This document shows, piece after piece, positions 6,340 to 52,848 of a DNA stretch of 64,000 nt; position 1 is the stretch's first letter; each line of letters begins with the position of its first letter. The stretch is taken from assembly GCF_021155765.1 (NCBI RefSeq), contig NC_060118.1, positions 2,728,001 to 2,792,000 of the forward strand, written 5' to 3'. A program made the translations under genes and the position numbers. The DNA is from Diprion similis. Taxonomy: Eukaryota; Arthropoda; Insecta; Hymenoptera; Diprionidae. The notes below the pieces were generated by a model that saw nothing but the letters and a program-made list of their open reading frames with translations, was not told the origin of the DNA and ran no database searches.

Positions 6340-7352
6340 CGAAGAGTATAAGATAGAGTGGAAGGTCCCATAAGAGCCAATGTATAAAAGCGTACCTTGA
6401 TTTTCAGCACGCTCTGGTAGCTCTGAGGAAAAGTAAAGTACCCCCACTACGATTTTGGCGCTCCCTTTAAACCGGGGAATACAGTGAAGAATTCTTAAAA
6501 CTTCTGATAATAAATTTTTTCCAATGAATTCTTCAGTCAACGCTGTTGTTACAGAACGATCTCATATTTTTCTCCATATCTGGCAGCCTATAAATATGTT
6601 TGCATGGATACAGAACATAACGTAAGTATCGCACATACACATTTCTTCTATGAATGTGATGTGAATTTAGTATAAGACAAAATTAATGAAATAAATGGCA
6701 ACAAATATCAAACACATTGTATCGAAATTATATATTTAAATAGGTAATCTTCAATATATAACATCAAAAAAGTACTTATATTTAAAAAACGTAAACAGTA
6801 ATGTCAAATCTTAATAAAAGTATATATCCGTACATAATACTGTATCATAAAGAATGGTTACATAAAATATTATATCAACTCAAAAACCTCTTGTATTTTT
6901 TATTAGTTTCTACCAAAACAACCATACACGAAAATCATTACATTTATTTTCACAGTATATGAAGATACGTGAGGAGCCACAGCATTCCCGCGAAAGTGAG
7001 GTTATATATTCATATTTACTTACAGTTGCTGTTTATTTGGTAACGAGAAAAACGTCACTTGTTTGCCGTTATTTATGCTTTGATTTTTTACATATTTGTT
7101 ATTGTCACATAATTTGATGTCACAAGAAATTGGCATCTTTGAAAAAAGTTCGTTTGTTACTCAATTCTCACCATGTATTCTTACCAGTGATTCTTACTCA
7201 GAGAATATGGCGACCGCGTCATCCCACCAACAAACAATACTACATCGCATGTTCACTGACGCTACACATACACGTTATACTTTTCCTCAGAGCTGCTAGG
7301 GGTGCTGTAATAGGGCGATACGGGTACCTTCCACTCTATCCTATACTCTTTG
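6340..7352 (+). mobile_element. 1-kb TIR element, family F, copy 1
   Basis: Starts CGAAGAGTATAAGATAGAG and ends CTCTATCCTATACTCTTTG, imperfect terminal inverted repeats. A second copy lies inverted at 8056-10964. No transposase is encoded. No 8-bp TSD is visible here, unlike copy 2, so one flank may be rearranged. Confidence 0.7.
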
Positions 7353-11269: not shown

Positions 11270-13749
11270 ACCTCCATATAGTTAGCCCCCCATGTGTATG
11301 GATTGGATTAATTCGTTTTGCAATCGTTTGTCGGTCGTTTGTCGGTCAATGATGGACTAATCCGAACGTTCGTCGGTTGTTCCTCGATTAGAAAATAATT
11401 TTTCAAAATTAGCATAAAAAATTTCTCCAGTTGGCCCCTTGACGGAACTGTTCCCGATTAATTTTGATGGTAATCGATCTAGAATCGTTTGTCGGTGATT
11501 GATGGATCATTCTCGCATAGTCAATTTGGATAGTTTCTGTAAAATCGTAGAAACAAAAATCTAATCTGGGTTGTCTATTGCTAATCGCTGCGCGGAAACC
11601 TACCATATGTGTTTATTTCATGGACTAGCAATTAAATTACATTTTCAATATGGCGGCGAGCCACCACACATCCATACCTGCCGAAAGACCATACGGATCT
11701 GAAGTGTTAACTGGGTGAGTTTCTATGAAGTGATGATGTATGTTTTTGGAAAAAATTTTCAGGAAGTTTTTCATGCATTTACAAAGAAAATATGAAAATT
11801 ATTCAACCGATAATGGACCATCAATAAGCGAAAAACGTATTTAGATCAAATTGCTTTGAAATAGTTCAACTATATTTTTATCGAGAAGCTAGGGGAAAAA
11901 ATTCGCATAGGGAATTTTTTATAGTTAGCCCCTTGATGGAATTGTTTCCGATTAATTTTGATATTAATCGATCTAAAATCGTTTGTTGGTAATTGATGGA
12001 TCATTCTCACATAGTAAATTTGAACAATTTCTACAAAATCGTAGAAACAAAAATCTAATCCGGTTATCTATTGCTAATCGCTGCGTGGAAACCTACCATT
12101 ATGGCGGCGAACAGAATCAATTTCTTAACGTCGCTCTACGGCCATGCTCTACGGTATCTCTACGGTATTCAAAATGATTCATAAGTGTGAGCTCGGAAAA
12201 AAATGTGACTCAAAAATTGAGGTTAAATAACCAACTAGTGGATAATCAACGCTCCGGTGAGATTACGACGGTAGGGTGGATCAAATAAAATGACTATTTT
12301 TTTTCCCCTTGATATAATGAAAAATTGATTGTATGGCATCTCAAAAAGGCTGCAACCGTCGAGGTTAGGAGAGTCTTTTTAGTACATTTCTGTAGAACTT
12401 TTTATGTTCTACAAAAAAGCTCTTTTGTATCTAATCGATAGAAGTAACCGTTCAAAAAATAATCGCTTTAAAGTTCTTCAATTATTTTTACCATGAATAC
12501 TAGTTTAAACACTAGATGAAACTCAAACTCTAAGAAACTCAAGCTTTAACAGCGATTATCTTTTGAACGGTTACTTCTATCGATTAGATACAAGAGAGCT
12601 TTTTTGTAGAACATAAAAAGTTCTACAGAAATGTACTAAAAAGACTCTCCTAACCTCGACGGTTGCAGCCTTTTTGAGATGCCATACAATCAATTTTTCA
12701 TTATATCAAGGGGAAAAAAAATAGTCATTTTATTTGACCCACCCTACCGTCGTAATCTCACCGGAGCGTTGATTATCCACTAGTTGGTTATTTAACCTCA
12801 ATTTTTGAGTCACATTTTTTTCCGAGCTCACACTTATGAATCATTTTGAATACCGTAGAGATACCGTAGAGCATGGCCGTAGAGCGACGTTAAGAAATTG
12901 ATTCTGTTCGCCGCCATAATGGTAGGTTTCCACGCAGCGATTAGCAATAGATAACCGGATTAGATTTTTGTTTCTACGATTTTGTAGAAATTGTTCAAAT
13001 TTACTATGTGAGAATGATCCATCAATTACCAACAAACGATTTTAGATCGATTAATATCAAAATTAATCGGAAACAATTCCATCAAGGGGCTAACTATAAA
13101 AAATTCCCTATGCGAATTTTTTCCCCCAGCTTCTCGATAAAAATATAGTTGAACTATTTCAAAGCAATTTGATCTAAATACGTTTTTCGCTTATTGATGG
13201 TCCAATATCGGTTGAATAATTTTCATATTTTCTTTGTAAATGTAAGAAAAACTCCCCGGAAAATTTTTTCCAATAACATTCATTATCACTTCATAGAAAC
13301 TCACCCAGTTAACACTTCAGATCCGTATGGTCTTTTGGCAGGTATGGATGTGTGGTGGCTCGCCGCGATATTGAAAATGTAATTTAATTGCTAGTCCATG
13401 AAATAAACACATATGGTAGGTTTCCGCGCAGCGATTAGCAATAGACAACCCAGATTAGATTTTTGTTTCTACGATTTTACAGAAACTATCCAAATTGACT
13501 ATGCGAGAATGATCCATCAATCACCGACAAACGATTCTAGATCGATTACCATCAAAATTAATCGGAAACAGTTCCGTCAAGGGGCCAACTAGAGAAATTT
13601 TTTATGCTAATTTTGAAAAATTATTTTCTAATCGAGGAATAACCGACAAACGTTCGGATTAGTCCATCATTGACCGACAAACGACCGACAAACGATTGCA
13701 AAAAGAATTAATCCAATCCACACACATGGGGGGCTAACTATATGGAGGT
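11270..13749. mobile_element. 2.5-kb palindromic fold-back element
   Basis: Two arms of about 1.2 kb are inverted copies around a loop near 12480-12545; the outer ends read ACCTCCATATAGTTAGCC and its complement. A 65-codon frame is repeated exactly on opposite strands (11983-12177 and 12841-13035), which shows how alike the arms are. Each arm also holds two diverged direct copies of a ~170-bp block (left arm about 11440-11610 and 11930-12110), giving four in all. No transposase and no clear TSD. Confidence 0.8.
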
Positions 13750-15156: not shown

Positions 15157-15160
15157 TTAA

Positions 15161-15751
15161 GGCCCCGCTGACCTGGCATGTCATATATATATTTCGTGAC
15201 GTCAGAAGCGGGGAAATTGGGTGAAAACGCCTATACGAATCCTGCGATAACGAGAGTATGAATCTTACTCGGAAATTTTTCAAATCGTAGCTTGAATAAT
15301 AGTGTACGTGTGAATCTCAGTCACCGCTCAGGCAAATCGCTGATAATGTTTATAATAAAGAATGATGAAGTGAATAAAATCACGCGACAACAAACATGGC
15401 CGATCGAAGCTACCGCATGTTGAATATTCACTGATTGCACTGTTCCACAATTTCTTTCACCCTCGTCATGGAGATTCACACGTACAAAAGCACACGCGTT
15501 ATCCGGGAAAACTTATACTATCAGTTATTTTTTTGTGAACATGGCTCGATTCGTATACGCGTTTTTCATGTGACAGCAGCCCGTTTATGGTCCACAAGAA
15601 GTATGTTTCGATCTGTAACTGACATCATTGGTTGGATCTAACAGAACAAGCCAATGAAATCAGCGGCCTTAGTTCACCGTTCAACGTTCAGAGGCGCTGC
15701 ACGTATTTATGACGTCACGATTTGATATTTTCAAGTCAGGTCAGCGGCACC
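15161..15751 (+). mobile_element. TTAA-flanked 591-bp element, copy 2
   Basis: Same length and orientation as copy 1, with TTAA at 15157-15160 and 15752-15755. Differences from copy 1 are scattered point changes. It sits in tandem with copy 1 at a shared target. Confidence 0.85.
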
Positions 15752-15797
15752 TTAAGACGATTACCTTTCTCTGTCACGCACGCTCACGATTGGTTAA

Positions 15798-16388
15798 GGT
15801 GCCGCTGACCTGACTTGGAAATATCAAATCGTGACGTCATAAATACGTGCAGCGCCTCTGAACGTTGAACGGTGAACTAAGGCCGCTGATTTCATTAGCT
15901 TGTTCTGTTAGATCCAACCAATGATGTCAGTTACAGATCGAAACATACTTCTTGTGGACCATAAACGGGCTGCTGTCACATGAAAAACGCGTATACGAAT
16001 CGAGCCATGTTTACAAAAAAATAACTGATAGTATAAGTTTTCCCGGATAACGTGTGTGCTTTTGTACGTGTGAATCTCCCTGGCGAGGGTGAAAGAAATT
16101 GTGGAACAGTGCAATCAGTGAATATTCAACATGCGGTAGTTCCGATCGGCCATGTTTGTTGTCGCGTGATTTTATTCACTTCATCATTCTTTATTATAAA
16201 CATTATCAGCGATTTGCCTGAGCAGTGACTGAGATTCACACGTACACTATTATTCAAGCTACGATTTAAAATATTTCCAAATAAGATTCATTCTCTCGTT
16301 ATCGCAGGATTCGCATAGGCTTTTTCACCCAATTTCCCCGCTTCTGACGTCACGAAATATATATATGACATGCCAGGTCAGCGGGGCC
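15798..16388 (-). mobile_element. TTAA-flanked 591-bp element, copy 3 (inverted)
   Basis: Again 591 bp, bounded by TTAA at 15794-15797 and 16389-16392, opposite in orientation to copies 1 and 2 and separated from copy 2 by only 38 bp of older sequence. Copies 2 and 3 together form a strong inverted repeat. Confidence 0.85.
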
Positions 16389-16500
16389 TTAACTGACGTC
16401 AGCGCCCCGAACACTCACGCTCGTTGCACAGGGCCCCGGCGCCCTGGGTTTGTTGAACATATCTTGTAAGCTTATAAACACTGCTTATAGCAGACTTAAA
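16389..16500 (+). promoter_or_regulatory. GC-rich promoter-like segment
   Basis: It contains the CRE-like palindrome TGACGTCA, a GGGCCCCGGCGCCC block, and, left of inserted copy 3, an inverted CCAAT box (GATTGG at 15788-15793). In AT-rich surroundings this looks like a housekeeping promoter. The same order, without the TTAA element, is present inverted in the MITE at 23697-24293. It could instead be transposon sequence; see findings. Confidence 0.4.
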
Positions 16501-34339: not shown

Positions 34340-34783
34340 TTACTTTTGATACTTATTACTCATTATCTGAATTTTATTTTGGTTCTGCAAGACATCAAAG
34401 TGTCCACCGTCTCCGTCGCCGGTGAAGAGTCGCGAGAATTGTCTTTCATTTTGGGATCTGATTTGGTGTGGATGAATTTGTTCTCCACGATACACGATTA
34501 AACATATCTTAAAAATTTCCGCAGCTGCAGCTAATTCTGCTTCTCCCCCGTAAATTCCATTTTTATTCATGTGTGATTTGTAATCACCAGGTGACCTAAT
34601 CACGGCACCGTTTGACTCATTACCTGTGATAAAACCCGCAAATGTAGACCAATTATCAACTATGTTTGAAACGATACTCAGTCTCACCTCTGCGTGTCGA
34701 TCTTGAGTGCCGCGTACACAATACGCCAGCGCGCAAAAAAGGCAATTCCCATCGGGAATCATCTTGATAATTCTCGTTTGCAT
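34340..34783 (-). CDS. OTU-type cysteine protease domain, likely Helitron-derived
   Basis: A 147-residue frame carries the OTU signature: PDGNCLF (catalytic Asp and Cys) near the start, a YGGEAELAAAAEIF helix in the middle and GGHFDVL (catalytic His) near the end. The family hydrolyses ubiquitin linkages in host enzymes, and the domain also occurs in Helentron-type transposon proteins and some viruses. The Helitron-like end 0.7 kb downstream favours the transposon origin. All catalytic residues appear present. No Rep or helicase domain is found upstream, so the element is partial. A host OTU gene is less likely since no introns or other conserved regions are seen. Confidence 0.7.
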   Translation of the reverse strand: MQTRIIKMIPDGNCLFCALAYCVRGTQDRHAEVRLSIVSNIVDNWSTFAGFITGNESNGAVIRSPGDYKSHMNKNGIYGGEAELAAAAEIFKICLIVYRGEQIHPHQIRSQNERQFSRLFTGDGDGGHFDVLQNQNKIQIMSNKYQK

Positions 34784-35380
34784 TTTTATATTTTGTGTGT
34801 CAGAAACAGATAACTATAAAAATATTTGTCAAAGACTGTCATAAACAGCCGATGACAGCTGTCAATCACTTAACACTAACTTCATAGCAACAGCAACTTC
34901 ATTATTAAATGAGTTTATTTTAAAATACTCCACGTTCGACTTCTCTGCGCACATCTTGTTATGAACATAGGAAGTTTTGTTTGCTAGATGCTTTTCGTTT
35001 TTTTTTCTGCATCTCACCCCACCGCCAATTTTATGCGTATACTATTGTTATTATAATCTTTTTTACCTGTTGCTATGCGGTACAGGATTTTTTTATTAGA
35101 ACGATATATACTGATGTCGGAGAAAGGCCAGATATCACTCGCGAACTTTGAGTTTTGCGTGTGGGACGCATGTTGAACCACCGTTTTATTTAACAAGATG
35201 AAACTGAACTTAACTTATCTAACAAAACTGTTTATAACGAGATTAATGTTCAATATTTTATATACACGTCCATTTGAATTTCGTGCCGTTTATTATTTTT
35301 ATGTCGTTTCCCTAGAGATCGAATAGAAGAAGGCGGTGATGATCCTCTTCGTTGTTCATTTCATTATCCTCGACACGGCC
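34784..35380. other. No gene recognised
   Basis: About 600 bp between the OTU frame and the giant palindrome. It holds short low-complexity T runs and no recognisable protein, RNA or repeat end. Confidence 0.3.
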
Positions 35381-37599
35381 AGGGTGACCAAGATAAGGTG
35401 GCCAACCCCCTCCAAAATCCAGCCCCGTGGGTTTTAAAAAAATTTTTTTCACGATTTTGAGAGGAAATTTGACGAACCTTCCGATGGCAAGGTCGAAATT
35501 TTTTTGGAAGTTACCATTTTTGCGTGCAAAAAAAAAATTTTTGATTCCGCACATCAAAATAGGTTTTGATTTTTTTTGTTGACAAAATAAAATTTACCGA
35601 ATTCGGAGATCAAAAATTTTCCGAGATCCGTCAAACCACTCGCCCACAAATAAATCGCAAAATTCGACTTTTGTAACCAAAATTCGGTTCTAACTGGCGG
35701 AACAGGTGGAATTGGAATATCTGTCAAAATTGATCCGCGCCAACTTCACCCGAGTCCAGGTAGCGTATAAGATACGTCATTGACGATTCTGCGCGATGGG
35801 TTTCGCTTGACAGACTTTCTCACAATGCTATGGCAGCTAGACAAGAAGCAAGATTAGAATTCCGAAAATATCTGCATTGCGCCAACGGTGACAAAAACGT
35901 CGGCATTTGAAATTGGCAATGATAATTAACGCCCCAGCAGCATAACGGGAGGTTAAAAAGCATCTTGTTAACGCCGGTTGCCGGTGGCAACCGCTGCAGC
36001 GCTCGCCCGTAGCCAATCGGCGGCCGATCGGCATTCTGCTGTAACCCTTTACCGATGACGGGTTGATGCAACGCAAAAATTGCAATACTTTAGTATTTTT
36101 CAGCGATGATACGTTGTCTTGGATGTGGAGCTAGCTTACGTTCGGAATTTTGAAGATTTTGCAGAATGCGGTGGGCTTGGTTTGATTCATTACCGGGCAA
36201 CCTAGCTGTAACACCGAACACACACGGGCTGAGTTGAGTTAAGCTGTTCTGTCAGAGTGCAGCCTTATCGACGGAGGCAATGCACTCTTATTTCATGCGA
36301 AAATCATTTGAAAAAAACCACCACACTCGACCCAAAATCCAACAGTACATTTATCGTTCGCCTCCAAATTTGAGTGTTGAAGAAAAGGGTTTGCAAGTTT
36401 TTTTTTTGTATGAGTGAGACTCTCTATTGGGCTTCGGGCATCCTCGGCTATATCCGATTCATATAAGAAAAAAAGGGGAAGGGGAAAAGGATGCTCGTCA
36501 GCCAGCTTAGTTATCTAACCGGTAGTCTTTAGTCCTGATGTGTAAGCCGCAGCGACAGCGTGCTTGATCCTGTGATGTACCTGTATTAATAAATAACACT
36601 TAAACTATCATAACCAGTGTCAGCTCCTCCAAATACCTCAAAATTGAGGTTAATTCATTCATCTTGCGGAAGAAATACCAAATAAATTGTTGATCCGGAC
36701 ACTGTGTATTTCCTTTCGTATTGAGCGTATTTCCGCGGTAGCAACGGTGGCCAAATTTTCTGTGATTCTAGTAGTAAAAAATGAGTGCAGTATTGAAGTA
36801 TGGCGGAAGTATGACTGAAACACGAAAGATGTACGAGGAGGATAAAGAAATTATCGCAAGTTAAAACAGGTACATATACCTTTTACCTGTGATTTTTTTT
36901 TTACTCTGTGGGCGACAAACATTTTTTTAAATAATTTTTATTAATTTTTTTTTCATAAATACAGTTGCCACGCTTCACGTTCAATTTCAATTCGATGACA
37001 GTCAACCATTATTCAATGAGTATTTACATGTGCAATACAACGTTTTGTTTCATTCAAATATGCAGAATCCATCAATTAGTGACCCAGAAAGAGGGGGTGA
37101 ATTTTTTTCATGAAATTATATGATACGGATCAAATCCTGATTCAACTGGGCTATTCCCGGTTCGACTCATCTCTTTCGAACGATCGGTACCTAAGATAAT
37201 TTTCAAGAGCGCGCGTGTCGTTTCTTTTGGACCATTGTACATATTCTCACTCTCGCTTTATTCACCCATTTGTTCGTTTCTTTGTTTTTATTGCGACTGA
37301 AGTCGCAGTTTCATAAATACAGTGATACAACATAGGGCTGGAGACGTGAAATTGATGCATTATTTACTGAAAATTAAATTTTTTGACAAGCCACAAGTGC
37401 ACCAAGCCGACTTACAAGTCTGAATTGGTGAATTGGCGAAATCTGTGAGACTGTATTGGTGCAAGTGCTGTTTTTTTTTTGTTTTTTTTTCGCGCGTCCG
37501 TGGCCAAATTGGTGGGGAAATCTTTTATAGACTATCCTGGGTAGAGTACCGTCACTCCCAGGAGTGTGGGACTCGCCTTACGGAATACCCACTAAAACC

Positions 37600-39340
37600 A
37601 CCACCAAAAGCCATTCCTTGCGGTTCCCTCCTCACCTCACGGAACTGCCGTCGTGCCTGTTCTGAAAAGTCGAATATTACAATAAGTGGAACGTCATATT
37701 TCGATGAAATTTAATCTAATATTTCCGAAACGATAGATGGAGTTTTGCGTGCGTCAAAGTCAAGCGTATTTATGAGCTCGACTTTTCACCACTGATCGCA
37801 ACACTATTCTCGTGTTACAGCCATAATGAGGATCAGATTTATGCAAAATAAGAAACGTTCGTCCGAATTTTGTAGTATTCAATACGAGCGTTTATTAAAA
37901 ATAATATGATCTTACGGTTTACTTCGGATCTCGCTCGGCATTACCGTCCGACAAATGCCATTCCTTGCTGTTCTCCTCGCCTCACGGAACTGCCGTCGTG
38001 ACTGTTTCAAAGAGTCAAATATCACAATAAGTAAAATACAAGGCGCATATTTCTACGAAAATCTATTCAATATTCCGGAAACGATAGATTCAGATTTACG
38101 TGCATCAAAATCAAGCGTATAATGTGAGCTCGACTTTTCACCACTTATCGTGACACTATTCTCGTATTACAACTATGATGAGGCCCAGATTTAATCGAAA
38201 TAATAAACGTTCATCCCAGTTTCGTAGTATTCAATACAAGCGTTTAGTAAAAAGAATCTGATCTTACGTTTCATTTCGGGTCTCGCTCAACGTTACCGTC
38301 CGCCAAATGTCATTGCCTTGCTGTCCTCCTCACCTCACGGAACTGCCGTCGTGCCTGTTTCGAAGAGTCAAACGTTACAGTAAGTAAAATACGAGGTGCA
38401 TATTTCTACGAAAATGTATCTAATATTCGGGAAAAAGTTAGATCCAGTCGTGCCTGGTCGTTTGGTAGATAAAATCTCATCTTACGTTTCATCTCTGGCC
38501 ACGCAGTCACTGTTACCGTTCGCCAAAAGCTACTCCTTGGTGTCGCCCTGCTGTTGTCTGCCTATTTTCAACAATCAAATATCAGGATGAAAAAAAATAC
38601 CAGGCCCATATTTCGATAAGAATGAATGTATCATTTTTGAAACGATAGATGCAGTTTTGTTTTTATAGCAATTGAACGGATGTAAATTCTACTTTTCACC
38701 ATTTTCGTGACACTATTCTCGCATTACAGAAATGCTGAGGCTCATATTCATTTGAATTGAGAGAAGCGTTCGTCACAGTTTTTCAGCATTCAATACACTC
38801 GTTTGGTGCATAAAATCGGATCTTACGTTTCATCTCTGGTCACGCAGTCACTGTTTCCGTCCGCCAAAAGCCCCCCTGCTGTCGCCCACACACCACGAAA
38901 CTGTCGTCATGCCTGTTTTCAACAATCAAATGTGACGATGAGAAAAATATGAGGCGCATATCTCGATAAGAATAAGTGTATTATTTTCGAAACGGTAGAT
39001 GGAGTTTTGCTTGTATCCCAATCTAACGGATGTAAACTCTACTTTTCACCATTTTCGTGACGCTATTCTCGCATCACAGAAATGCCGAGGCTCAGATTTA
39101 TTCCAAATAAGAAGTGCTCATCACAGTTTTGCAGCATTCAATATGAAAGTTTAGCAAAAAATAAAAAAACTGCTCTTACGTTTCATTTGTGATCACGCCA
39201 GCCTTTCGTGTCCGCCGATAGTCATACATTGCTTGTCCGCGAGACCTATCCACGGAACTATCGTCGTACCTGTTTTCAACATTAAAAAGTCAGAATAAAA
39301 AAAAAATACGAGGTGCCTTCAGAGTGAAAATGACTGTAAT
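37600..39340. repeat. Degenerate tandem array, left arm
   Basis: About six units of roughly 210-355 bp share ACGGAACTGCCGTCGTG, TTTCACCACT..., ...GACACTATTCTCG and CTTACGTTTCAT motifs (unit marks near 37638, 37982, 38335, 38545, 38900 and 39253). The array lies just downstream of the left transposase stop codon. Function is unknown; subterminal arrays can bind transposase in other elements. Confidence 0.7.
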
Positions 39341-39530
39341 GTTATTCAAAGATCACCAACAGTTTTGTGTGCAGTAGCAAACAAACATCGCCTTAACGTT
39401 TCGCCGTTTTTCGTAATATTATTTTCAATAAGAATAAATCATCATAATTTCGTACTATGATCATTATATTATTCCTCTATCGTATTATTATATTCATTGA
39501 ATATTTGTAAAAAGAATCACATCTCACATT

Positions 39531-42153
39531 TCATTCCTGGTTCCGCCGCCTCAGGAGCTGCTCTATGTGCCCTCCGTTCCTCTCAACGGTGAGTGCGAGC
39601 CGTTTTGGAATCGACCTTCGCACCCGTTGCAGCTCCCTAACAGGAATTGCGGCACACGCTTCGGCGATGCGGTGCCGCATGTCGTGTTTCGTGGTGGGCC
39701 TCCGTGCGTACACGATTTCCTTGATTCTGCCCCAGAACCAGAAATCGCAGACCGTAAGATCCGGTGAGCGTGCTGGCCACCTCACCGGTCCTCTCGTCCC
39801 GATCCAACGCCCCGGGAACATGGCGTCCAGGATTGCCATGTTCTCGTTGCTGTTGTGAGCAGGGGCCCCGTCCTGCTGCCACCAAATCTGGTCCATAGGG
39901 ATGGCGTTTCCGTCCATCAGACGTGGGACTTCCTCGGTCAGTACAGTTCTGTACTTGGCGGACGTCAAGTTTCCGTCGAGGAAGATGGGCCCGAGGATCC
40001 TGTCCCCTTCTATTCCGACCCAGACGTTGAGCTTCCAGCGGTGTTGGCGGTCCTGCTCTACAATCCAGCGTGGATTTTCCTGAGCCCACCAACGGCAGTT
40101 CTGCTTGTTTACGATCTCCAGGTTGGTGAAGATCGCTTCGTCCGTGTGGCACACCCTTCGGTAGAAGTCTGGATCTTCCCGGAGTCGGTCCAGTCCCCAG
40201 CGGCAGTAGGTCAACCTTCGCTCGTCATCGCCTGGGTACAGCTTGTGTAGCCGAACGTGCTTGTACGGACGGAACGATTGTCCTTTTACGATCGTTCTTA
40301 CAGATTCTCGCGGAACCTCTGTAGGGAATTAATTATTTCGTTTACAAGGCATAAATAGACAACTATTGCATTCGCCCTTAAATACACGTCGAATTCCCCA
40401 CTATAATTTGCGTGAAAATTTCTTTTCTCTGACAAATCTCACCGAGTACATCCACGGATGACTCGTAAAAAAAATTCGCATCAACCGCGGCGGAAATTAC
40501 TCGCTGAATTGACGTGTGAATAGATTTGTGAATTTATTATGATTCACCCGAATTAATGAGAATTAGATCAAATTAATGCAGGATAACTTGATTAATGTGA
40601 ATCACCCACAATAGATTTGTGAATTTATTATGATTCACCCGAATTAATGAGAATTAGATCAAATTAATGCAGGATAACTTGATTAATGTGAATCACCCGA
40701 ATTTTCTGAGAAATAACCGAATTGCTGTGAATTAAGTCAAGTTGATTTTGATTAGTTTGGATTTATGGTACAATTATCTTTTCACAGAGAGCAATAATGA
40801 AATTGACGTCAGAAATTGGGTTGATAAAAATGAAAAAAAAAGAAAATGAAAATAATAATAATAATAATAGTAAAAATAATTTAAATTAACAGAAAATACA
40901 AAAGAATGAATTGAAATTTTTTCAATTTCGCTCGGATTAGACTCAGTTATCTAGAAAACATTAAAATTCATAGATTGAAATGAACTTATTTCAATACAAG
41001 AAATGTATCTGAATTGGAAAAATTAATTTGAACTGAGAAATAAAAATTCAATTGGACAGAAAGGAAAATAATGTAAATTAACGAGAATTGCAAAAGAATG
41101 AATTGAAATATTCTCAAACTCGCTGGAATTAGTGTGAATTATTGAGAAAAAATTGAATTAATTAAGTGGAATTAAAGCAATCTAACTGAATGAAAAAAAA
41201 AATTAATTCCAAATATTTATTTACACTAATTCAGCTAAAAAATTATGGTGTCACTCAAATTTCAATTTATCTCCCCCTTGCATGAAATGGACCACTCAGC
41301 TAGGCTACGCAGCATTGATTTGAATGTGAATGAATAAGATAGCGTCGATGCTGGTAAATTTGAAATTTCTGGAGATGCCGGAAGAAATATTTGAGAAATC
41401 ATACAATCACCGGACCAATCACAAGTTTATCAGAAAACGAAATTTAATTTTTTACAGCTTTCACAGACGCTTCAGAAGTTTTTGATATTTTTCACTCCGA
41501 AGCGGATGCATGAAAAAATGAGGCGCGAAAATTGGTGATTTTATAGACGCTATTACGTCAAAAAATTCAAGAAAATCATCGCCAGACAGGGTGCACATTA
41601 ATGAATTCGGCACGGAATGCCCCATACGCACAAAAAGTATAACTCAGAAAAAAGAAACATACGCAGTGTTCTGGCCAGGCGTCTGAGACTCTGTCTCCCG
41701 TTTTCCCGGATAGCGTTTTCCACTTCTTCTCGCACGGGACCGTCCACCACCGGCTTGATCCGTTGTTCTCGTGGCCGCTCCAGCACGCCGTGCTCCGCCT
41801 CCGTTGCCGCAAGCCTAGACACGAAGTTTCGCATATGCGAATCATACATTCTTAAAAACTTTGCTAAGCATAGTTTTTTTTCTTACAGACACAGAATTGA
41901 CGTAGCCGATATTTATATCACATTTAATATTTGTAATATACTCTCGAGGGCAGTGTGCGCAAGCTGCATCGAGTTCTAGTGCAAATTTGAAAATTATTTC
42001 ATTGCGAACACGGTACCTTCGGAAGGACTGCCTCGACGGTGGCTGCTCGTCCTCCGGGAACCGCTCTCGGTACGTCCTCGCCGATCCCGCGAAGTTGTTC
42101 CCTGTCTCCGCCAGTATCCGGTGCATCCTGGTGAGCCGCACTTCCCTGTCCAT
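39531..42153 (-). CDS. Tc1/mariner-superfamily transposase, left-arm copy, three exons
   Basis: A DDE transposase that would cut and join element ends. Exons are 42017-42153, 41663-41814 and 39531-40318, with GT-AG introns; total 1,077 nt, 358 codons plus stop. The N-terminus (MDREVRLTRMHRILAETG, then YRERFPEDEQPPSRQSF) is a DUF4817-like helix-turn-helix; exon 2 carries a second HTH part (RKPV/IKPVVDGP type). Exon 3 has the catalytic core: TDEAIF, WWQQDGAPAHN and SPDLTVCDFWFWG. I count 41 residues between the second and third Asp, so DD41D. The frame is intact. It is the mirror image of the gene at 42986-45608. Introns in such a gene are notable. Confidence 0.85.
40521..40700. repeat. Tandem duplication with 91-bp period, left arm
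   Basis: Two nearly identical units starting TAGATTTGTGAATTTATT, at 40521 and 40612; mirrored at 44439-44618. It lies in transposase intron 2. Units contain GATTCACCCGAATTAATG and its near inverse GATTAATGTGAATCACCC. Confidence 0.8.
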
Positions 42154-42985
42154 CCTGATCTACAATTTTCTATCAAAAACTATTCTAACAATACGACTAT
42201 AACAACTTAGCGGTAGTAAAATTAACGTTGAAATAAAAATACTCTTAAACGGCTAACAATGCTACAGATAAATGTATGAAATTAACAACTATCACTGATC
42301 TTAAGGGTAACACAATGATTGAGAACGTAACAAGAATGCTTAAAAGGTAAAAAATACTGTAAAGGATGTGATGAAAGTTGAAAATGATGTCGGTTTTTTG
42401 TTGATTTGCGGATGAAAGTTTTTGGGTGCGTGGAGATGCTTCGAATAATTCTTAGCGTCTGTTTGCCGAAATAATCGGGAGACGATGCCAGATCTTAGTT
42501 TGTTATTTATCGCGCGATGCGCCGAGCTGCGTTTGTTGGTCACGAAGGTATTCATTTGTTATAACAGGCCGCTGACCCATAGTTCGTGAAATAATCACGA
42601 CAATTGACGCAGCTCGGCGCATCGCGCGATAAATAACAAACTAAGATCTGGCATCGTCTCCCGATTATTTCGGCAAACAGACGCTAAGAATTATTCGAAG
42701 CATCTCCACGCACCCAAAAACTTTCATCCGCAAATCAACAAAAAACCGACATCATTTTCAACTTTCATCACATCCTTTACAGTATTTTTTACCTTTTAAG
42801 CATTCTTGTTACGTTCTCAATCATTGTGTTACCCTTAAGATCAGTGATAGTTGTTAATTTCATACATTTATCTGTAGCATTGTTAGCCGTTTAAGAGTAT
42901 TTTTATTTCAACGTTAATTTTACTACCGCTAAGTTGTTATAGTCGTATTGTTAGAATAGTTTTTGATAGAAAATTGTAGATCAGG
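42154..42985. promoter_or_regulatory. Shared divergent promoter region of the twin transposases
   Basis: The 832 bp between the two start codons are palindromic except for the 74-bp spacer 42533-42606. Both genes therefore have the same upstream sequence for about 380 bp. I see no clear TATA box placed at a defined start, so promoter function is inferred only from the gene arrangement. Confidence 0.45.
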
Positions 42986-45608
42986 ATGGACAGGGAAGTG
43001 CGGCTCACCAGGATGCACCGGATACTGGCGGAGACAGGGAACAACTTCGCGGGATCGGCGAGGACGTACCGAGAGCGGTTCCCGGAGGACGAGCAGCCAC
43101 CGTCGAGGCAGTCCTTCCGAAGGTACCGTGTTCGCAATGAAATAATTTTCAAATTTGCACTAGAACTCGATGCAGCTTGCGCACACTGCCCTCGAGAGTA
43201 TATTACAAATATTAAATGTGATATAAATATCGGCTACGTCAATTCTGTGTCTGTAAGAAAAAAAACTATGCTTAGCAAAGTTTTTAAGAATGTATGATTC
43301 GCATATGCGAAACTTCGTGTCTAGGCTTGCGGCAACGGAGGCGGAGCACGGCGTGCTGGAGCGGCCACGAGAACAACGGATCAAGCCGGTGGTGGACGGT
43401 CCCGTGCGAGAAGAAGTGGAAAACGCTATCCGGGAAAACGGGAGACAGAGTCTCAGACGCCTGGCCAGAACACTGCGTATGTTTCTTTTTTCTGAGTTAT
43501 ACTTTTTGTGCGTATGGGGCATTCCGTGCCGAATTCATTAATGTGCACCCTGTCTGGCGATGATTTTCTTGAATTTTTTGACGTAATAGCGTCTATAAAA
43601 TCACCAATTTTCGCGCCTCATTTTTTCATGCATCCGCTTCGGAGTGAAAAATATCAAAAACTTCTGAAGCGTCTGTGAAAGCTGTAAAAAATTAAATTTC
43701 GTTTTCTGATAAACTTGTGATTGGTCCGGTGATTGTATGATTTCTCAAATATTTCTTCCGGCATCTCCAGAAATTTCAAATTTACCAGCATCGACGCTAT
43801 CTTATTCATTCACATTCAAATCAATGCTGCGTAGCCTAGCTGAGTGGTCCATTTCATGCAAGGGGGAGATAAATTGAAATTTGAGTGACACCATAATTTT
43901 TTAGCTGAATTAGTGTAAATAAATATTTGGAATTAATTTTTTTTTTCATTCAGTTAGATTGCTTTAATTCCACTTAATTAATTCAATTTTTTCTCAATAA
44001 TTCACACTAATTCCAGCGAGTTTGAGAATATTTCAATTCATTCTTTTGCAATTCTCGTTAATTTACATTATTTTCCTTTCTGTCCAATTGAATTTTTATT
44101 TCTCAGTTCAAATTAATTTTTCCAATTCAGATACATTTCTTGTATTGAAATAAGTTCATTTCAATCTATGAATTTTAATGTTTTCTAGATAACTGAGTCT
44201 AATCCGAGCGAAATTGAAAAAATTTCAATTCATTCTTTTGTATTTTCTGTTAATTTAAATTATTTTTACTATTATTATTATTATTATTTTCATTTTCTTT
44301 TTTTTTCATTTTTATCAACCCAATTTCTGACGTCAATTTCATTATTGCTCTCTGTGAAAAGATAATTGTACCATAAATCCAAACTAATCAAAATCAACTT
44401 GACTTAATTCACAGCAATTCGGTTATTTCTCAGAAAATTCGGGTGATTCACATTAATCAAGTTATCCTGCATTAATTTGATCTAATTCTCATTAATTCGG
44501 GTGAATCATAATAAATTCACAAATCTATTGTGGGTGATTCACATTAATCAAGTTATCCTGCATTAATTTGATCTAATTCTCATTAATTCGGGTGAATCAT
44601 AATAAATTCACAAATCTATTCACACGTCAATTCAGCGAGTAATTTCCGCCGCGGTTGATGCGAATTTTTTTTACGAGTCATCCGTGGATGTACTCGGTGA
44701 GATTTGTCAGAGAAAAGAAATTTTCACGCAAATTATAGTGGGGAATTCGACGTGTATTTAAGGGCGAATGCAATAGTTGTCTATTTATGCCTTGTAAACG
44801 AAATAATTAATTCCCTACAGAGGTTCCGCGAGAATCTGTAAGAACGATCGTAAAAGGACAATCGTTCCGTCCGTACAAGCACGTTCGGCTACACAAGCTG
44901 TACCCAGGCGATGACGAGCGAAGGTTGACCTACTGCCGCTGGGGACTGGACCGACTCCGGGAAGATCCAGACTTCTACCGAAGGGTGTGCCACACGGACG
45001 AAGCGATCTTCACCAACCTGGAGATCGTAAACAAGCAGAACTGCCGTTGGTGGGCTCAGGAAAATCCACGCTGGATTGTAGAGCAGGACCGCCAACACCG
45101 CTGGAAGCTCAACGTCTGGGTCGGAATAGAAGGGGACAGGATCCTCGGGCCCATCTTCCTCGACGGAAACTTGACGTCCGCCAAGTACAGAACTGTACTG
45201 ACCGAGGAAGTCCCACGTCTGATGGACGGAAACGCCATCCCTATGGACCAGATTTGGTGGCAGCAGGACGGGGCCCCTGCTCACAACAGCAACGAGAACA
45301 TGGCAATCCTGGACGCCATGTTCCCGGGGCGTTGGATCGGGACGAGAGGACCGGTGAGGTGGCCAGCACGCTCACCGGATCTTACGGTCTGCGATTTCTG
45401 GTTCTGGGGCAGAATCAAGGAAATCGTGTACGCACGGAGGCCCACCACGAAACACGACATGCGGCACCGCATCGCCGAAGCGTGTGCCGCAATTCCTGTT
45501 AGGGAGCTGCAACGGGTGCGAAGGTCGATTCCAAAACGGCTCGCACTCACCGTTGAGAGGAACGGAGGGCACATAGAGCAGCTCCTGAGGCGGCGGAACC
45601 AGGAATGA
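42986..45608 (+). CDS. Tc1/mariner-superfamily transposase, right-arm copy, three exons
   Basis: Mirror copy of the left-arm gene. Exons 42986-43122 (donor CGAAG|GTACCG), 43325-43476 (acceptor GTCTAG|G, donor CTGC|GTATGT) and 44821-45608 (acceptor CCCTACAG|AGG); phases 2 and 1 join cleanly to 358 codons ending RRRNQE. The junctions rebuild the expected HTH (SFRR-LAATEAEHG and LARTLQ-VPRESVRT). The catalytic Asp residues are present as in the left copy. Identity of the two copies means either could supply full-length enzyme if expressed. Family assignment rests on motif recognition; the exact subfamily is not certain. Confidence 0.85.
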
Positions 45609-45798
45609 AATGTGAGATGTGATTCTTTTTACAAATATTCAATGAATATAATAATACGATAGAGGAATAATATAATGATCATAGTACGAAATTATGATGA
45701 TTTATTCTTATTGAAAATAATATTACGAAAAACGGCGAAACGTTAAGGCGATGTTTGTTTGCTACTGCACACAAAACTGTTGGTGATCTTTGAATAAC

Positions 45799-47539
45799 AT
45801 TACAGTCATTTTCACTCTGAAGGCACCTCGTATTTTTTTTTTATTCTGACTTTTTAATGTTGAAAACAGGTACGACGATAGTTCCGTGGATAGGTCTCGC
45901 GGACAAGCAATGTATGACTATCGGCGGACACGAAAGGCTGGCGTGATCACAAATGAAACGTAAGAGCAGTTTTTTTATTTTTTGCTAAACTTTCATATTG
46001 AATGCTGCAAAACTGTGATGAGCACTTCTTATTTGGAATAAATCTGAGCCTCGGCATTTCTGTGATGCGAGAATAGCGTCACGAAAATGGTGAAAAGTAG
46101 AGTTTACATCCGTTAGATTGGGATACAAGCAAAACTCCATCTACCGTTTCGAAAATAATACACTTATTCTTATCGAGATATGCGCCTCATATTTTTCTCA
46201 TCGTCACATTTGATTGTTGAAAACAGGCATGACGACAGTTTCGTGGTGTGTGGGCGACAGCAGGGGGGCTTTTGGCGGACGGAAACAGTGACTGCGTGAC
46301 CAGAGATGAAACGTAAGATCCGATTTTATGCACCAAACGAGTGTATTGAATGCTGAAAAACTGTGACGAACGCTTCTCTCAATTCAAATGAATATGAGCC
46401 TCAGCATTTCTGTAATGCGAGAATAGTGTCACGAAAATGGTGAAAAGTAGAATTTACATCCGTTCAATTGCTATAAAAACAAAACTGCATCTATCGTTTC
46501 AAAAATGATACATTCATTCTTATCGAAATATGGGCCTGGTATTTTTTTTCATCCTGATATTTGATTGTTGAAAATAGGCAGACAACAGCAGGGCGACACC
46601 AAGGAGTAGCTTTTGGCGAACGGTAACAGTGACTGCGTGGCCAGAGATGAAACGTAAGATGAGATTTTATCTACCAAACGACCAGGCACGACTGGATCTA
46701 ACTTTTTCCCGAATATTAGATACATTTTCGTAGAAATATGCACCTCGTATTTTACTTACTGTAACGTTTGACTCTTCGAAACAGGCACGACGGCAGTTCC
46801 GTGAGGTGAGGAGGACAGCAAGGCAATGACATTTGGCGGACGGTAACGTTGAGCGAGACCCGAAATGAAACGTAAGATCAGATTCTTTTTACTAAACGCT
46901 TGTATTGAATACTACGAAACTGGGATGAACGTTTATTATTTCGATTAAATCTGGGCCTCATCATAGTTGTAATACGAGAATAGTGTCACGATAAGTGGTG
47001 AAAAGTCGAGCTCACATTATACGCTTGATTTTGATGCACGTAAATCTGAATCTATCGTTTCCGGAATATTGAATAGATTTTCGTAGAAATATGCGCCTTG
47101 TATTTTACTTATTGTGATATTTGACTCTTTGAAACAGTCACGACGGCAGTTCCGTGAGGCGAGGAGAACAGCAAGGAATGGCATTTGTCGGACGGTAATG
47201 CCGAGCGAGATCCGAAGTAAACCGTAAGATCATATTATTTTTAATAAACGCTCGTATTGAATACTACAAAATTCGGACGAACGTTTCTTATTTTGCATAA
47301 ATCTGATCCTCATTATGGCTGTAACACGAGAATAGTGTTGCGATCAGTGGTGAAAAGTCGAGCTCATAAATACGCTTGACTTTGACGCACGCAAAACTCC
47401 ATCTATCGTTTCGGAAATATTAGATTAAATTTCATCGAAATATGACGTTCCACTTATTGTAATATTCGACTTTTCAGAACAGGCACGACGGCAGTTCCGT
47501 GAGGTGAGGAGGGAACCGCAAGGAATGGCTTTTGGTGGT
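45799..47539. repeat. Degenerate tandem array, right arm
   Basis: Exact mirror of the array at 37600-39340, downstream of the right transposase stop codon. Confidence 0.7.
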
Positions 47540-49671
47540 GGTTTTAGTGGGTATTCCGTAAGGCGAGTCCCACACTCCTGGGAGTGACGGTACTCTACCC
47601 AGGATAGTCTATAAAAGATTTCCCCACCAATTTGGCCACGGACGCGCGAAAAAAAAACAAAAAAAAAACAGCACTTGCACCAATACAGTCTCACAGATTT
47701 CGCCAATTCACCAATTCAGACTTGTAAGTCGGCTTGGTGCACTTGTGGCTTGTCAAAAAATTTAATTTTCAGTAAATAATGCATCAATTTCACGTCTCCA
47801 GCCCTATGTTGTATCACTGTATTTATGAAACTGCGACTTCAGTCGCAATAAAAACAAAGAAACGAACAAATGGGTGAATAAAGCGAGAGTGAGAATATGT
47901 ACAATGGTCCAAAAGAAACGACACGCGCGCTCTTGAAAATTATCTTAGGTACCGATCGTTCGAAAGAGATGAGTCGAACCGGGAATAGCCCAGTTGAATC
48001 AGGATTTGATCCGTATCATATAATTTCATGAAAAAAATTCACCCCCTCTTTCTGGGTCACTAATTGATGGATTCTGCATATTTGAATGAAACAAAACGTT
48101 GTATTGCACATGTAAATACTCATTGAATAATGGTTGACTGTCATCGAATTGAAATTGAACGTGAAGCGTGGCAACTGTATTTATGAAAAAAAAATTAATA
48201 AAAATTATTTAAAAAAATGTTTGTCGCCCACAGAGTAAAAAAAAAATCACAGGTAAAAGGTATATGTACCTGTTTTAACTTGCGATAATTTCTTTATCCT
48301 CCTCGTACATCTTTCGTGTTTCAGTCATACTTCCGCCATACTTCAATACTGCACTCATTTTTTACTACTAGAATCACAGAAAATTTGGCCACCGTTGCTA
48401 CCGCGGAAATACGCTCAATACGAAAGGAAATACACAGTGTCCGGATCAACAATTTATTTGGTATTTCTTCCGCAAGATGAATGAATTAACCTCAATTTTG
48501 AGGTATTTGGAGGAGCTGACACTGGTTATGATAGTTTAAGTGTTATTTATTAATACAGGTACATCACAGGATCAAGCACGCTGTCGCTGCGGCTTACACA
48601 TCAGGACTAAAGACTACCGGTTAGATAACTAAGCTGGCTGACGAGCATCCTTTTCCCCTTCCCCTTTTTTTCTTATATGAATCGGATATAGCCGAGGATG
48701 CCCGAAGCCCAATAGAGAGTCTCACTCATACAAAAAAAAAACTTGCAAACCCTTTTCTTCAACACTCAAATTTGGAGGCGAACGATAAATGTACTGTTGG
48801 ATTTTGGGTCGAGTGTGGTGGTTTTTTTCAAATGATTTTCGCATGAAATAAGAGTGCATTGCCTCCGTCGATAAGGCTGCACTCTGACAGAACAGCTTAA
48901 CTCAACTCAGCCCGTGTGTGTTCGGTGTTACAGCTAGGTTGCCCGGTAATGAATCAAACCAAGCCCACCGCATTCTGCAAAATCTTCAAAATTCCGAACG
49001 TAAGCTAGCTCCACATCCAAGACAACGTATCATCGCTGAAAAATACTAAAGTATTGCAATTTTTGCGTTGCATCAACCCGTCATCGGTAAAGGGTTACAG
49101 CAGAATGCCGATCGGCCGCCGATTGGCTACGGGCGAGCGCTGCAGCGGTTGCCACCGGCAACCGGCGTTAACAAGATGCTTTTTAACCTCCCGTTATGCT
49201 GCTGGGGCGTTAATTATCATTGCCAATTTCAAATGCCGACGTTTTTGTCACCGTTGGCGCAATGCAGATATTTTCGGAATTCTAATCTTGCTTCTTGTCT
49301 AGCTGCCATAGCATTGTGAGAAAGTCTGTCAAGCGAAACCCATCGCGCAGAATCGTCAATGACGTATCTTATACGCTACCTGGACTCGGGTGAAGTTGGC
49401 GCGGATCAATTTTGACAGATATTCCAATTCCACCTGTTCCGCCAGTTAGAACCGAATTTTGGTTACAAAAGTCGAATTTTGCGATTTATTTGTGGGCGAG
49501 TGGTTTGACGGATCTCGGAAAATTTTTGATCTCCGAATTCGGTAAATTTTATTTTGTCAACAAAAAAAATCAAAACCTATTTTGATGTGCGGAATCAAAA
49601 ATTTTTTTTTCGCACGCAAAAATGGTAACTTCCAAAAAAATTTCGACCTTGCCATCGGAAGGTTCGTCAAA

Positions 49672-50929
49672 GGGCATAGCCGAATAAGCATGCCAAAAGT
49701 GCCCTTTCACCAAATGGATTCTTCGATGACCAACTGTTTCCTCTTAGTAAATGACTCACCCATACCAAATTTAAGCCTTCTACCTCCATTTTGTTCGAAG
49801 TTATCGCAAAAAACGTGATTTTTAGCCGTTTCGCGATAACTCCGCTATTTCTACTCGAAAAATTCCAGAAAAAATCACAAATCCAGCAGATGTTCGTACA
49901 CATATTGAGGATTTTTTTCAGATTTTTCAGTATTAACCTGGATCTCACAAAAATTTTTGAACATTTGGATCGCTGGTTTCCGGTGGATTTTGAAAAGGTA
50001 CCACCTTGTTCTTATTACAGTATAAACATCTGCATTTATGTGATTCTTTGTAATTTTTTCAGATTCTTACGATCGGTGCGTCATTGTCAAAAAAATCAAA
50101 AACTGACATTCTCAACTATTTTATGGGCACGACTTCAAGATAAGGGCACAGCTAGATAGGCCGGTCGAAAGTGCCTTTACGCCACATGATTCGCGGACTA
50201 AATTTTGTTCCGAAGCAAGTGAAATACATATTTTCACATGTAAGTTGATGACCCCCTCTTCTCAATTTTTTTTCGGTGCGACACCTATCATTAGAAAAAA
50301 TCGGCCAGAATAAAAAGGTTCCTGTTTGTGGAAAACGTGAATTTAGTGAATGGAATTGTGAATACGTGATTCACTAATTCTACAGAATCACACTATGCAG
50401 ATCGGCATGGCACATGCCCCTAGAGGGCGATAGCCATGATTTTCTAGAGGAAAATTGGTCAAAGTGCAGCTCCTTCAGATGGATGATTTTCTGGAAGAAA
50501 ATTGGTCGAAGTGTAGCTCCTCCAGATGGCATGTCGAACCTCATCATGGCTATCGCCCTCTAGGGGCATGTGCTATTCCGATTTGCATAGTGTAGTTTTG
50601 TAAAATTAGTGAATCCCATATTTACAATTCCATTCACTCATTCACGTTTTCCACAAACTGGAACATTTTTAATCTGGCCGATTTTTTCTAATGATAGGTG
50701 TCGCATCGAAAAAAAATTGAGAAGAGGGGGTCATCAACTTACACGTGAAAATATGTAGTTCACTTGCTTCGGAACGAAATTCAGATCTGCGAATCATGTG
50801 GCGAAAAGGCACTTTCGACCGGCCATAAAATTTGGTATGGGTGGGTCATTTACCAAGAGGCAACAGTTGGTCATCGAAAGAATCCATTTGGTGAAGGGGG
50901 ACTTTTGGCATGCTTATTCGGCTATGCCC
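49672..50929. mobile_element. 1.26-kb fold-back inserted in the right arm only
   Basis: Begins GGGCATAGCCGAATAAGC and ends GCTTATTCGGCTATGCCC. The left arm reads CAAATTTCC at the equivalent site, so the insertion lies exactly between AAA and TTT with no TSD. Arms are unequal: about 390 bp of the left half (near 49780-50160) has no partner. The loop region repeats TTTCT(A/G)GA(G/A)GAAAATTGGTC twice near 50450-50500. No transposase. Confidence 0.75.
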
Positions 50930-51207
50930 TTTCCTTTAAAAATCGTAAAAAAAAATTTTTCAAATCCCACGGGGCTGGATTTTGGAGGGGGGTGGCCACC
51001 TCATCTTGGTCACCCTTTATATAGGTGTATTCGTCCAATCTTTATATTAACTTCTTATTGGCTACCGCAAGAACTGGGATGGTATCGATCATAAAAACAT
51101 GGCAAACAATAATTATTTCGACAGCAGGCACACGTGATAAATGATGAGTTCCCGCATCCGCAGGATTTTTTTAAAATATCCACCGCAAAGCAAACCTCGT
51201 TCACGTT

Positions 51208-52848
51208 TTAGAAAGAACTCCTGTCATCAGTTAATTTGGCAGCGAACCAAGCGTATTGCAGCATGTCGCAAAATATCGGAGAAGATAGCTGATGGTGAAC
51301 AATAGATTGTATTTTGATGCAATCTTCCCTTGAAGTTATTTCCCTGTCTTGTTCAATAATATAAGGACAGTTCTGAAGTTTCTTGATCAAATTTTTAACT
51401 TGGCGATAGAAATATACGTCGCATGGCTGCACCAACGGAGTACACTTTGGTGGAATGACCTTCAAGCTACACGTTGGTAAACCGTCCTCATCGGTGAAAA
51501 TCTTGTCATACAATACTGGATTCGTCTGGCCACCCCAAGAATCAATCAGCAACAGAAATTTCTCCTCCTTAACGTATGGCTTCATCACGTCAGTCAAAAA
51601 ATCTCTATAAAGTGCTGTGGTCAGTTTACCGGACTTGGACGATGTGATGACGACGTTCGTATACTTTTCCGCGTATTCATCTACAGATTTTTGGAACCAT
51701 GGTCCAAACTTGCCCGTGGTCTCTTGCAAGCAAACGTAGACAGTCGGAAGTAGTTTACCCGATAGGCTCATTGCATACTGTGCCGTGTATGAATGCGTCA
51801 CCTTATTCATGTCTTTTCGTTTCACCAGGACCACTTTAGACCCACACGCGGCAAGTGTTCTGTTGTACGTGGATTAGTATTGACACCCTAAACAAAAGAA
51901 GTGGAATAATTACATCATGTACACGGAATTTTTGTCGGATACGTAATAAAATTACATTTTTAAATACCTGTTTGATCAGTGTTTATCACGAAATCCTGGT
52001 CAAAATTCGGAATTAACGCTCGTGTCTGGAGCCTGAAGTTTTCTGCCCCAGCCAGGGTTTCCTCGATAGTAACGGTTTCTTGTTCTGATACGGATTTTCT
52101 TATTTTCCTTTGGCGAATGTTATGTCTTGCTTTGAATTGGATTACCCAGGACTGGGAAGCTTTGAATTGCAAATCAGGAAATTAGCTCGCAGTAGCTAGT
52201 GCCCATTGCTGTAGGTTTCTCGTTGTGACCTGCTGGTTGCATTGTCGAGCTTCTGTGAAACGATCGTTTACCCAGAAATCAAGTGTATTATATTTGTCGT
52301 TGATAGTTCCACCACTTCTGATTTGTTTTTCCCATCTTCTCAAGTCGTCCATTCTCTTGAGGTGATGTGCTCCTTTTCTTTTTAGGGTCTGCAGGCTCCA
52401 CTCTGGATTCGTTTTTGCCAAATTCACCACCTTTATTTTATATTCCAGGGGAATGAAGTCTTTTTCGGCATTCATAATTTTTTCGGGTGGCTCGTAATCG
52501 TCATCTTCGTTGTCCGGTTGCGATGCGGATTCTTTTACCTCTTCCCATAAGCCTTTTTGACAAATTTCGTCGAACGCTATCAGTTCATCATCCGTCACAA
52601 GTTTATTTTCTGTAATTGTTTCCCGTATACTGTGATACATTTTCTCGCCAATTTCGATGTGTTCTTGCTTGATTACCGTGGGGGTTTCCGTCGCGATGTG
52701 ATCATTTTCCACAAGAAGTTGTTCGCAATATACATACAAACGCAGGTTTGAATAACACTTTCGAATCTTCAATATCTTGGGCTTCCACATCAGGTACACT
52801 GTCTTCGGCTGGTGAAGGACCGGAAACTTCACTTTTATCGTCGGACAT
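51208..52848 (-). pseudogene. pogo-type (DDE_1) transposase with CENP-B HTH, broken
   Basis: An ATG at 52848 opens an acidic N-terminus (MSDDKSEVSGPSPAED) that changes frame near 52740, by frameshift or an unrecognised intron. The main frame then has a CENP-B-like HTH region and the first catalytic Asp in INTDQTG. A GT-AG intron (about 51892-51966) separates this from the core, with LLLIDSWGG (second Asp) and PLVQPCDVYFYRQ (third Asp). Two in-frame TAA stops are visible, one at 52182-52184 and one just after the intron, about 15 codons before the downstream open frame. Transposases of this group cut their own ends; some were recruited as host DNA-binding proteins. This copy is dead. Confidence 0.75.

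Follow-up and report, generated by a model that had tools for sequence, protein, structure and literature searches.

How a palindrome of more than 14 kb comes to carry a complete transposase gene in each arm, and whether it behaves as one mobile element, is the question raised by a 64,000-nt stretch of the genome of Diprion similis (Hymenoptera, Diprionidae; RefSeq assembly GCF_021155765.1, contig NC_060118.1, positions 2,728,001 to 2,792,000 of the forward strand), hereafter the window. An earlier note on this DNA had described a 15.6-kb palindromic element with two divergent transposase genes, and had suggested that it could be a new class of transposon or a fused pair of elements. Here, we find the palindromic unit at several loci, with open transposase genes and with arms that evolve in concert. 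We consider it likely that the window element (copy A) belongs to a Tc1/mariner family (DD41D spacing) of low copy number and autonomous appearance, in which each unit forms a near-perfect palindrome and conversion homogenises the arms. It is a multi-copy, palindromic variant of Tc1/mariner with two open transposase genes, and not a new class.

Copy A is built from the following parts, given in window coordinates.

35381–35467, + strand: left outer terminus, 87 bp; in other copies CAGGGTG after TA, with the start one base further out
35468–42532, + strand: left palindrome arm
36375–36643, no strand: 269-bp insertion between copies of TTGAG (36370–36374 and 36644–36648); right-arm mirror at 48496–48764
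37605–39143, no strand: left-arm tandem repeats of ~350 bp that separate the gene from the terminus; mirror at 45996–47534
39531–40318, − strand: transposase exon 3, left arm
41663–41850, − strand: transposase exon 2, left arm
42017–42153, − strand: transposase exon 1, left arm
42533–42606, no strand: spacer, 74 bp
42607–49671, − strand: right palindrome arm, from the arm-to-arm comparison
42986–43122, + strand: transposase exon 1, right arm
43289–43476, + strand: transposase exon 2, right arm
44821–45608, + strand: transposase exon 3, right arm, carrying the catalytic triad and the stop codon
49672–50929, no strand: nested Spy-like element, 1,258 bp, flanked by AAA and TTT and confined to the right arm of A
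50930–51016, − strand: right outer terminus

The arms are reverse complements of equal length over 7,065 bp, with no indels and a single substitution (A at 35528 versus G at 49611), and they enclose the 74-bp spacer exactly as had been claimed. The outer 87-bp termini match at 79 of 87 positions. The claimed span of 15,636 bp also stands, but it includes the nested element found in the right arm only, and the palindrome proper is thus ~14.4 kb. Terminal inverted repeats (TIRs), a feature of IS630-Tc1-mariner elements, are present, and the unit consists almost entirely of long inverted repeats, an architecture that is Foldback-like in a sense that describes layout and not descent. Read from the outside inward, each arm comprises a terminus, ~4 kb with tandem repeats, and the transposase gene. 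The head-to-head junction of the arms lies shortly before the two gene starts, and the centre is thus probably a two-way promoter from which both genes may be expressed.

Each arm holds the intact three-exon gene that the earlier note had proposed; the two translations are identical (370 aa), and the introns of 166 and 1,344 bp begin with GT and end with AG. Three aspartates, D168, D258 and D300, form a D(89)D(41)D triad that is invariant among 21 aligned proteins. The 41 residues between the second and third aspartate match the DD41D groups (rosa, VS, LTIR); this placement is by spacing, the 27-protein tree comprising unnamed homologues, one Neodiprion protein and one Prorops protein. All Pfam matches were weak and fell short of the curated cut-offs, DUF4817 ranking best, and phmmer against the PDB returned one weak match, to Sleeping Beauty (E 5e-4). 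The predicted structure of exon 3 (mean predicted local distance difference test score 80.6) best matches the catalytic domains of Sleeping Beauty and Mos1 (E 2e-9 to 9e-9). Sequence, triad and predicted fold together mark the putative enzyme as an IS630-Tc1-mariner transposase with DD41D spacing. The closest of the 511 proteins found is a predicted protein of the sawfly Neodiprion fabricii (81% identity over 71% of the query), in which the homology is joined near the present exon-3 boundary.

We searched the genome (269 Mb in 60 contigs) for sister copies. Copy C (contig C9, 10554791–10568324) is a 13.5-kb palindrome that keeps both ends and has arms 99.8% alike. In copy B, on the same contig (10484580 to ~10495156), a repeat array has replaced the right outer arm. 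Copy D (C14:454665–475095) is decayed and keeps both arms and both ends, with its centre deleted. A further decayed copy on contig C10 (~506,400–512,000) has the spacer between two arms, and C7 holds a decayed single-arm remnant. Within the C10 copy (L030, ~8151–9530), one arm is ~5 times more diverged from A than the other (63 versus 12 substitutions over ~650 columns).

At four loci whose flanks differ, two arms enclose a letter-identical copy of the 74-bp spacer: A, C, C10 and, inverted, B. With mirrored arms, an inverted spacer means only that B sits in the other orientation. Both outer ends are kept at three loci, A, C and D. A query with the 320-bp left end gave 11 matches, six of which are both ends of each of these three copies; the others are the left end of B, an inner part of the right arm of A, and three distant or partial matches (72–77%). 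In A, B and C alike, the centre gave no match to this query, and no element terminus was seen in the centre sequences inspected. The reading of the palindrome as a single unit is upheld by the shared spacer and ends. The suggestion of a fused pair falls, as no element terminus was seen at the centre; a composite transposon, or a fusion of two complete elements, was rejected because no terminus was seen at the inner side of either arm.

We compared the six arms of A, B and C, without the decayed or partial D, C10, C7 and C12 copies. The five long arms are all lettered at 6,667 columns, a count that excludes the truncated right arm of B, which enters the comparison of B and C alleles below. At 173 of these columns the two arms of A agree and the two arms of C agree, while A differs from C; within the alignment the arms of A differ at 9 columns and those of C at 13. 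Both arms of A also contain an extra 274 bp, TTGAG and 269 bp followed by TTGAG again, which constitutes a 5-bp target duplication. The segment is absent from the left arm of B, from both arms of C and of D, and from the distant C12 copy, and the right arm of B ends short of its place. The first base of the insertion matches the start of a separate copy (C10:1732117–1732382). It is not credible that the two arms acquired independent insertions at the same base, and the 269-bp insertion was thus copied across. Both arms of C lack a 51-bp stretch that is present in A, in the left arm of B and in D. The proposal that the two gene copies correct each other is thus borne out by a mirrored insertion with its target duplication and by 173 concerted sites.

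Gene conversion in place, after insertion, is strongly suggested by these patterns. Alternatively, transposition itself may make the arms identical by rebuilding one from the other, in which case low divergence would only date the insertion; we give this account a small but appreciable chance. It fits the close similarity of the arms of A and of C over most of their length, and the nested insert that is still absent from the left arm of A. Against it, A has 1 difference in 7,065 positions between its inner arms but 8 in the outer 87 bp, which the one-sided nested element separates from the inner arm (Fisher p = 3e-15); a rebuilt element should lack this contrast, which would carry less weight if the right end of A were chimaeric. 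B and C moreover share arm-specific alleles, in matching orientation, at two central sites (42283 and 42408), so that the insertion of B and C left their arms un-reset there, an argument drawn from two sites. At six sites the right arm of B has the allele of A, and the left arm of B and both arms of C share the other. The simplest reading of this pattern is that C would have been homogenised after its separation from B, although the right arm of B may instead have recombined with another copy; site 41400 shows the reverse pattern, involving the left arm of B. Ten of the 12 BLAST-counted differences between the arms of C lie within ~1 kb of the centre, unlike the arm differences in A and in a second palindromic family, F2, which lie near the outer ends.

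Several observations weigh against arms homogenised by conversion in an intact, mobile family. The outer 87 bp are T-rich and more variable in general (B versus C, 5/87, compared with 34/5,799 in their longest shared arm stretch), so that the contrast between the inner and outer parts of A is in part a local rate effect. The right arm of B has many private changes, the arms of B differ at 30 of 2,365 positions where the outer part was read, and near the centre the two arms of C10 share only 87% identity; homogenisation can therefore fail and is not universal. The six transposase genes of A, B and C are all open and share their splice-site sequences, and coding sites are less divergent between A and C (14/1,110 versus 159/5,557 elsewhere, p = 0.0013), but the ratio of non-synonymous to synonymous substitution rates is 0.76 from 14 changes, and selection on the protein is weakly supported. 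Finally, the termini of A are damaged, and no clean empty site for A or C was found via the flanking repeats. The sister copies suggest that the true terminus would lie one base further out than 35381 (CAGGGTGACC after TA), and TA and C precede AGGG at five of the eight ends read, including both ends of copy C. The left terminus of A adjoins a fragment (35104–35380) of a ~270-bp repeat resembling a long terminal repeat (LTR), which may explain the lost TA there. Elsewhere this repeat occurs as pairs ~5 kb apart, an LTR-like arrangement.

A near-perfect palindrome within a contig is also a classical warning sign of an assembly fold-back, in which the mirror arm is a chimeric-read artefact. For copy A we regard this as very improbable: the flanks of the two sides differ, the nested insert occupies one arm only, the outer termini are not identical, the same centre recurs at other loci, and the assembly resolves the 12 arm differences in copy C. 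The earlier note had proposed to check whether full-length copies share both ends; the two outer ends are kept together at three loci. Two separate head-to-head insertions of one element by chance, for which a tail-to-tail pair of the single-gene family F3 on contig C13 is a precedent in this genome, are just as improbable, since that pair has termini at its middle and none is seen at the centre of A, and since one spacer at four loci would need four identical coincidences.

The preferred reading, a palindromic Tc1/mariner unit homogenised by conversion, leaves the origin of the palindrome to be explained, and families F2 and F3 bear on it. F2 (L029; C5:6091438–6097091) is a 5.65-kb palindrome with a 90-bp spacer and two divergent transposase genes, each with two exon-like stretches that are open and alike in both arms. 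Over the aligned stretch its arms differ by 6 substitutions, all in the outer 314 of ~2,790 positions, plus 130 gap columns. In a second F2 copy (C11:13936853–13939812) the left arm remains, but a deletion has left no more of the right side than 72 bp of inner arm and a terminal piece; the spacer of this copy has the same length as that of the C5 copy and matches it in the first half. F3 (L032, L039–L041) is a single-gene family of ~5.6 kb with many near-identical copies, which looks like a recent burst. The F3 end pattern has 483 matches genome-wide, many of them paired ~2.7 kb apart (shorter relatives). The C13 pair (L032) had been a candidate for a third palindromic family and is actually two single-gene F3 elements, each with its own terminus visible at the middle.

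Each arm of A has the same order as an F3 element: gene, tandem repeats, terminus. The presence of single-gene relatives with this order in the same genome, together with the IS630-Tc1-mariner transposase, argues against the new class that had been entertained. In the 27-protein tree F2 is sister to F3 (100/100) and far from the window family, and palindromes thus probably arose twice. The distance from arm start to ATG is 379 bp in the window family and ~165 bp in F2; no homology of the F2 centre with the F3 region upstream of the gene was found at the divergence of F2 and F3.

The palindrome most likely arose when one half of a single-gene ancestor, the gene and its downstream end, was duplicated in inverted orientation; it would then correspond to two copies of this downstream half joined head to head, the other half having been lost. 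One possible route is gap repair with a single terminal repeat as template for both broken ends, leaving a short unequal spacer, and fold-back replication could lead to an equal outcome. Both ends of the resulting unit would be the same end, which the transposase could pair, so that the whole palindrome may be excised and inserted at TA. After insertion, gene conversion between the arms would spread insertions, deletions and point changes. More tentatively, palindrome formation might be a recurrent survival strategy of cut-and-paste transposons, with at least two independent origins here, in which doubling the gene head to head gives interchangeable ends and a repair template, and conversion between arms could preserve an intact transposase in copies that would decay without it.

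Other features of the locus can be described briefly. The nested element has ~104-bp terminal repeats and internal inverted repeats, and belongs to a multi-copy family in the genome. The terminus of this family, GGGCATAGC, is preceded by AAA at nine of nine full ends from five other copies (two partial end matches excluded), and the sequence beyond varies. The signature reported for Spy elements is insertion within AAATTT with no target duplication (PMC4482050), and the insert may be called Spy-like by this insertion-site signature alone. A large cargo element was considered for the arms and rejected: besides exon 3, open reading frames (ORFs) of at least 70 aa reach at most 171 aa, the longest being other frames over exon 3. 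To the left of A lies an ORF with an OTU-protease domain (34340–34783, − strand), and to the right a DDE_1 (pogo/Tigger-like) transposase fragment (51208–51834, − strand). Two further palindromic repeats occur in the window, at 11270–13749 (2.5 kb, 96.8%) and 15157–16392 (1.24 kb, 95.6% self-complementary). Rfam and tRNA scans of the 64-kb window gave no matches.

Once inserted, a transposon copy mutates independently of the others and is expected to decay. This decay could be slowed or biased in a mobile unit that holds its gene in duplicate within a palindrome able to convert itself, and the mirrored and unmirrored events in the present copies make arm-to-arm conversion measurable outside sex chromosomes. 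As the genome also contains F2, palindromic as well, and its single-gene sister F3, both origin and advantage become testable. Among the titles and abstract openings listed by searches of one open-access library, none described a transposon of palindromic form that carries a transposase in both arms.

Several known systems share parts of this layout. Bacterial composite transposons carry transposase genes at both inverted ends, with each arm a whole insertion sequence that has an inner end; the centre of the window element, in contrast, has no terminus. Tc4 of nematodes is a small, near-palindromic DNA transposon that, like the window element, is almost wholly inverted repeat, but its palindromic form is not known to carry a transposase. 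The palindromes of sex chromosomes in willow and apes have near-identical arms maintained by conversion around a short spacer, yet these are segments of host chromosomes and not mobile elements.

Within its own superfamily, the window element departs from the typical, though not required, layout of one ORF of ~340 aa in a 1–5 kb element (PMC8472432, PMC5490172), having two three-exon genes in ~14.4 kb. The aphid LTIR clade (DD40-41D) and rosa (DD41D) comprise elements of 2.3–2.4 kb with one transposase listed; they resemble the window family in DD41D spacing and in unusually long TIRs (~460 bp in LTIR), but have no gene inside the repeats, and the main text of the paper does not contain the word intron (PMC5490172). 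The DD41D/VS elements of bees likewise share the spacing and hymenopteran hosts, but measure 1,024–2,258 bp with a single ORF, and the text that describes them refers to neither palindromes nor introns (PMC8472432).

A further parallel in architecture is Galileo, of the P superfamily in Drosophila, with TIRs of up to 4.2–4.7 kb that contain tandem repeats; internal sequence has been recruited into these TIRs, and insertions in one TIR become part of both (PMC4168063). Galileo differs in its P-type transposase, a type to which our sequence and structure searches did not assign the window enzyme, and its TIRs hold at most a piece of an ORF (over 500 bp). The longest copy reported lacks the transposase segment, and that study found no functional copy (PMC4168063). 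By analogy, the window element may be seen as completing a Galileo-like trend in another superfamily, with the whole gene brought within both repeats.

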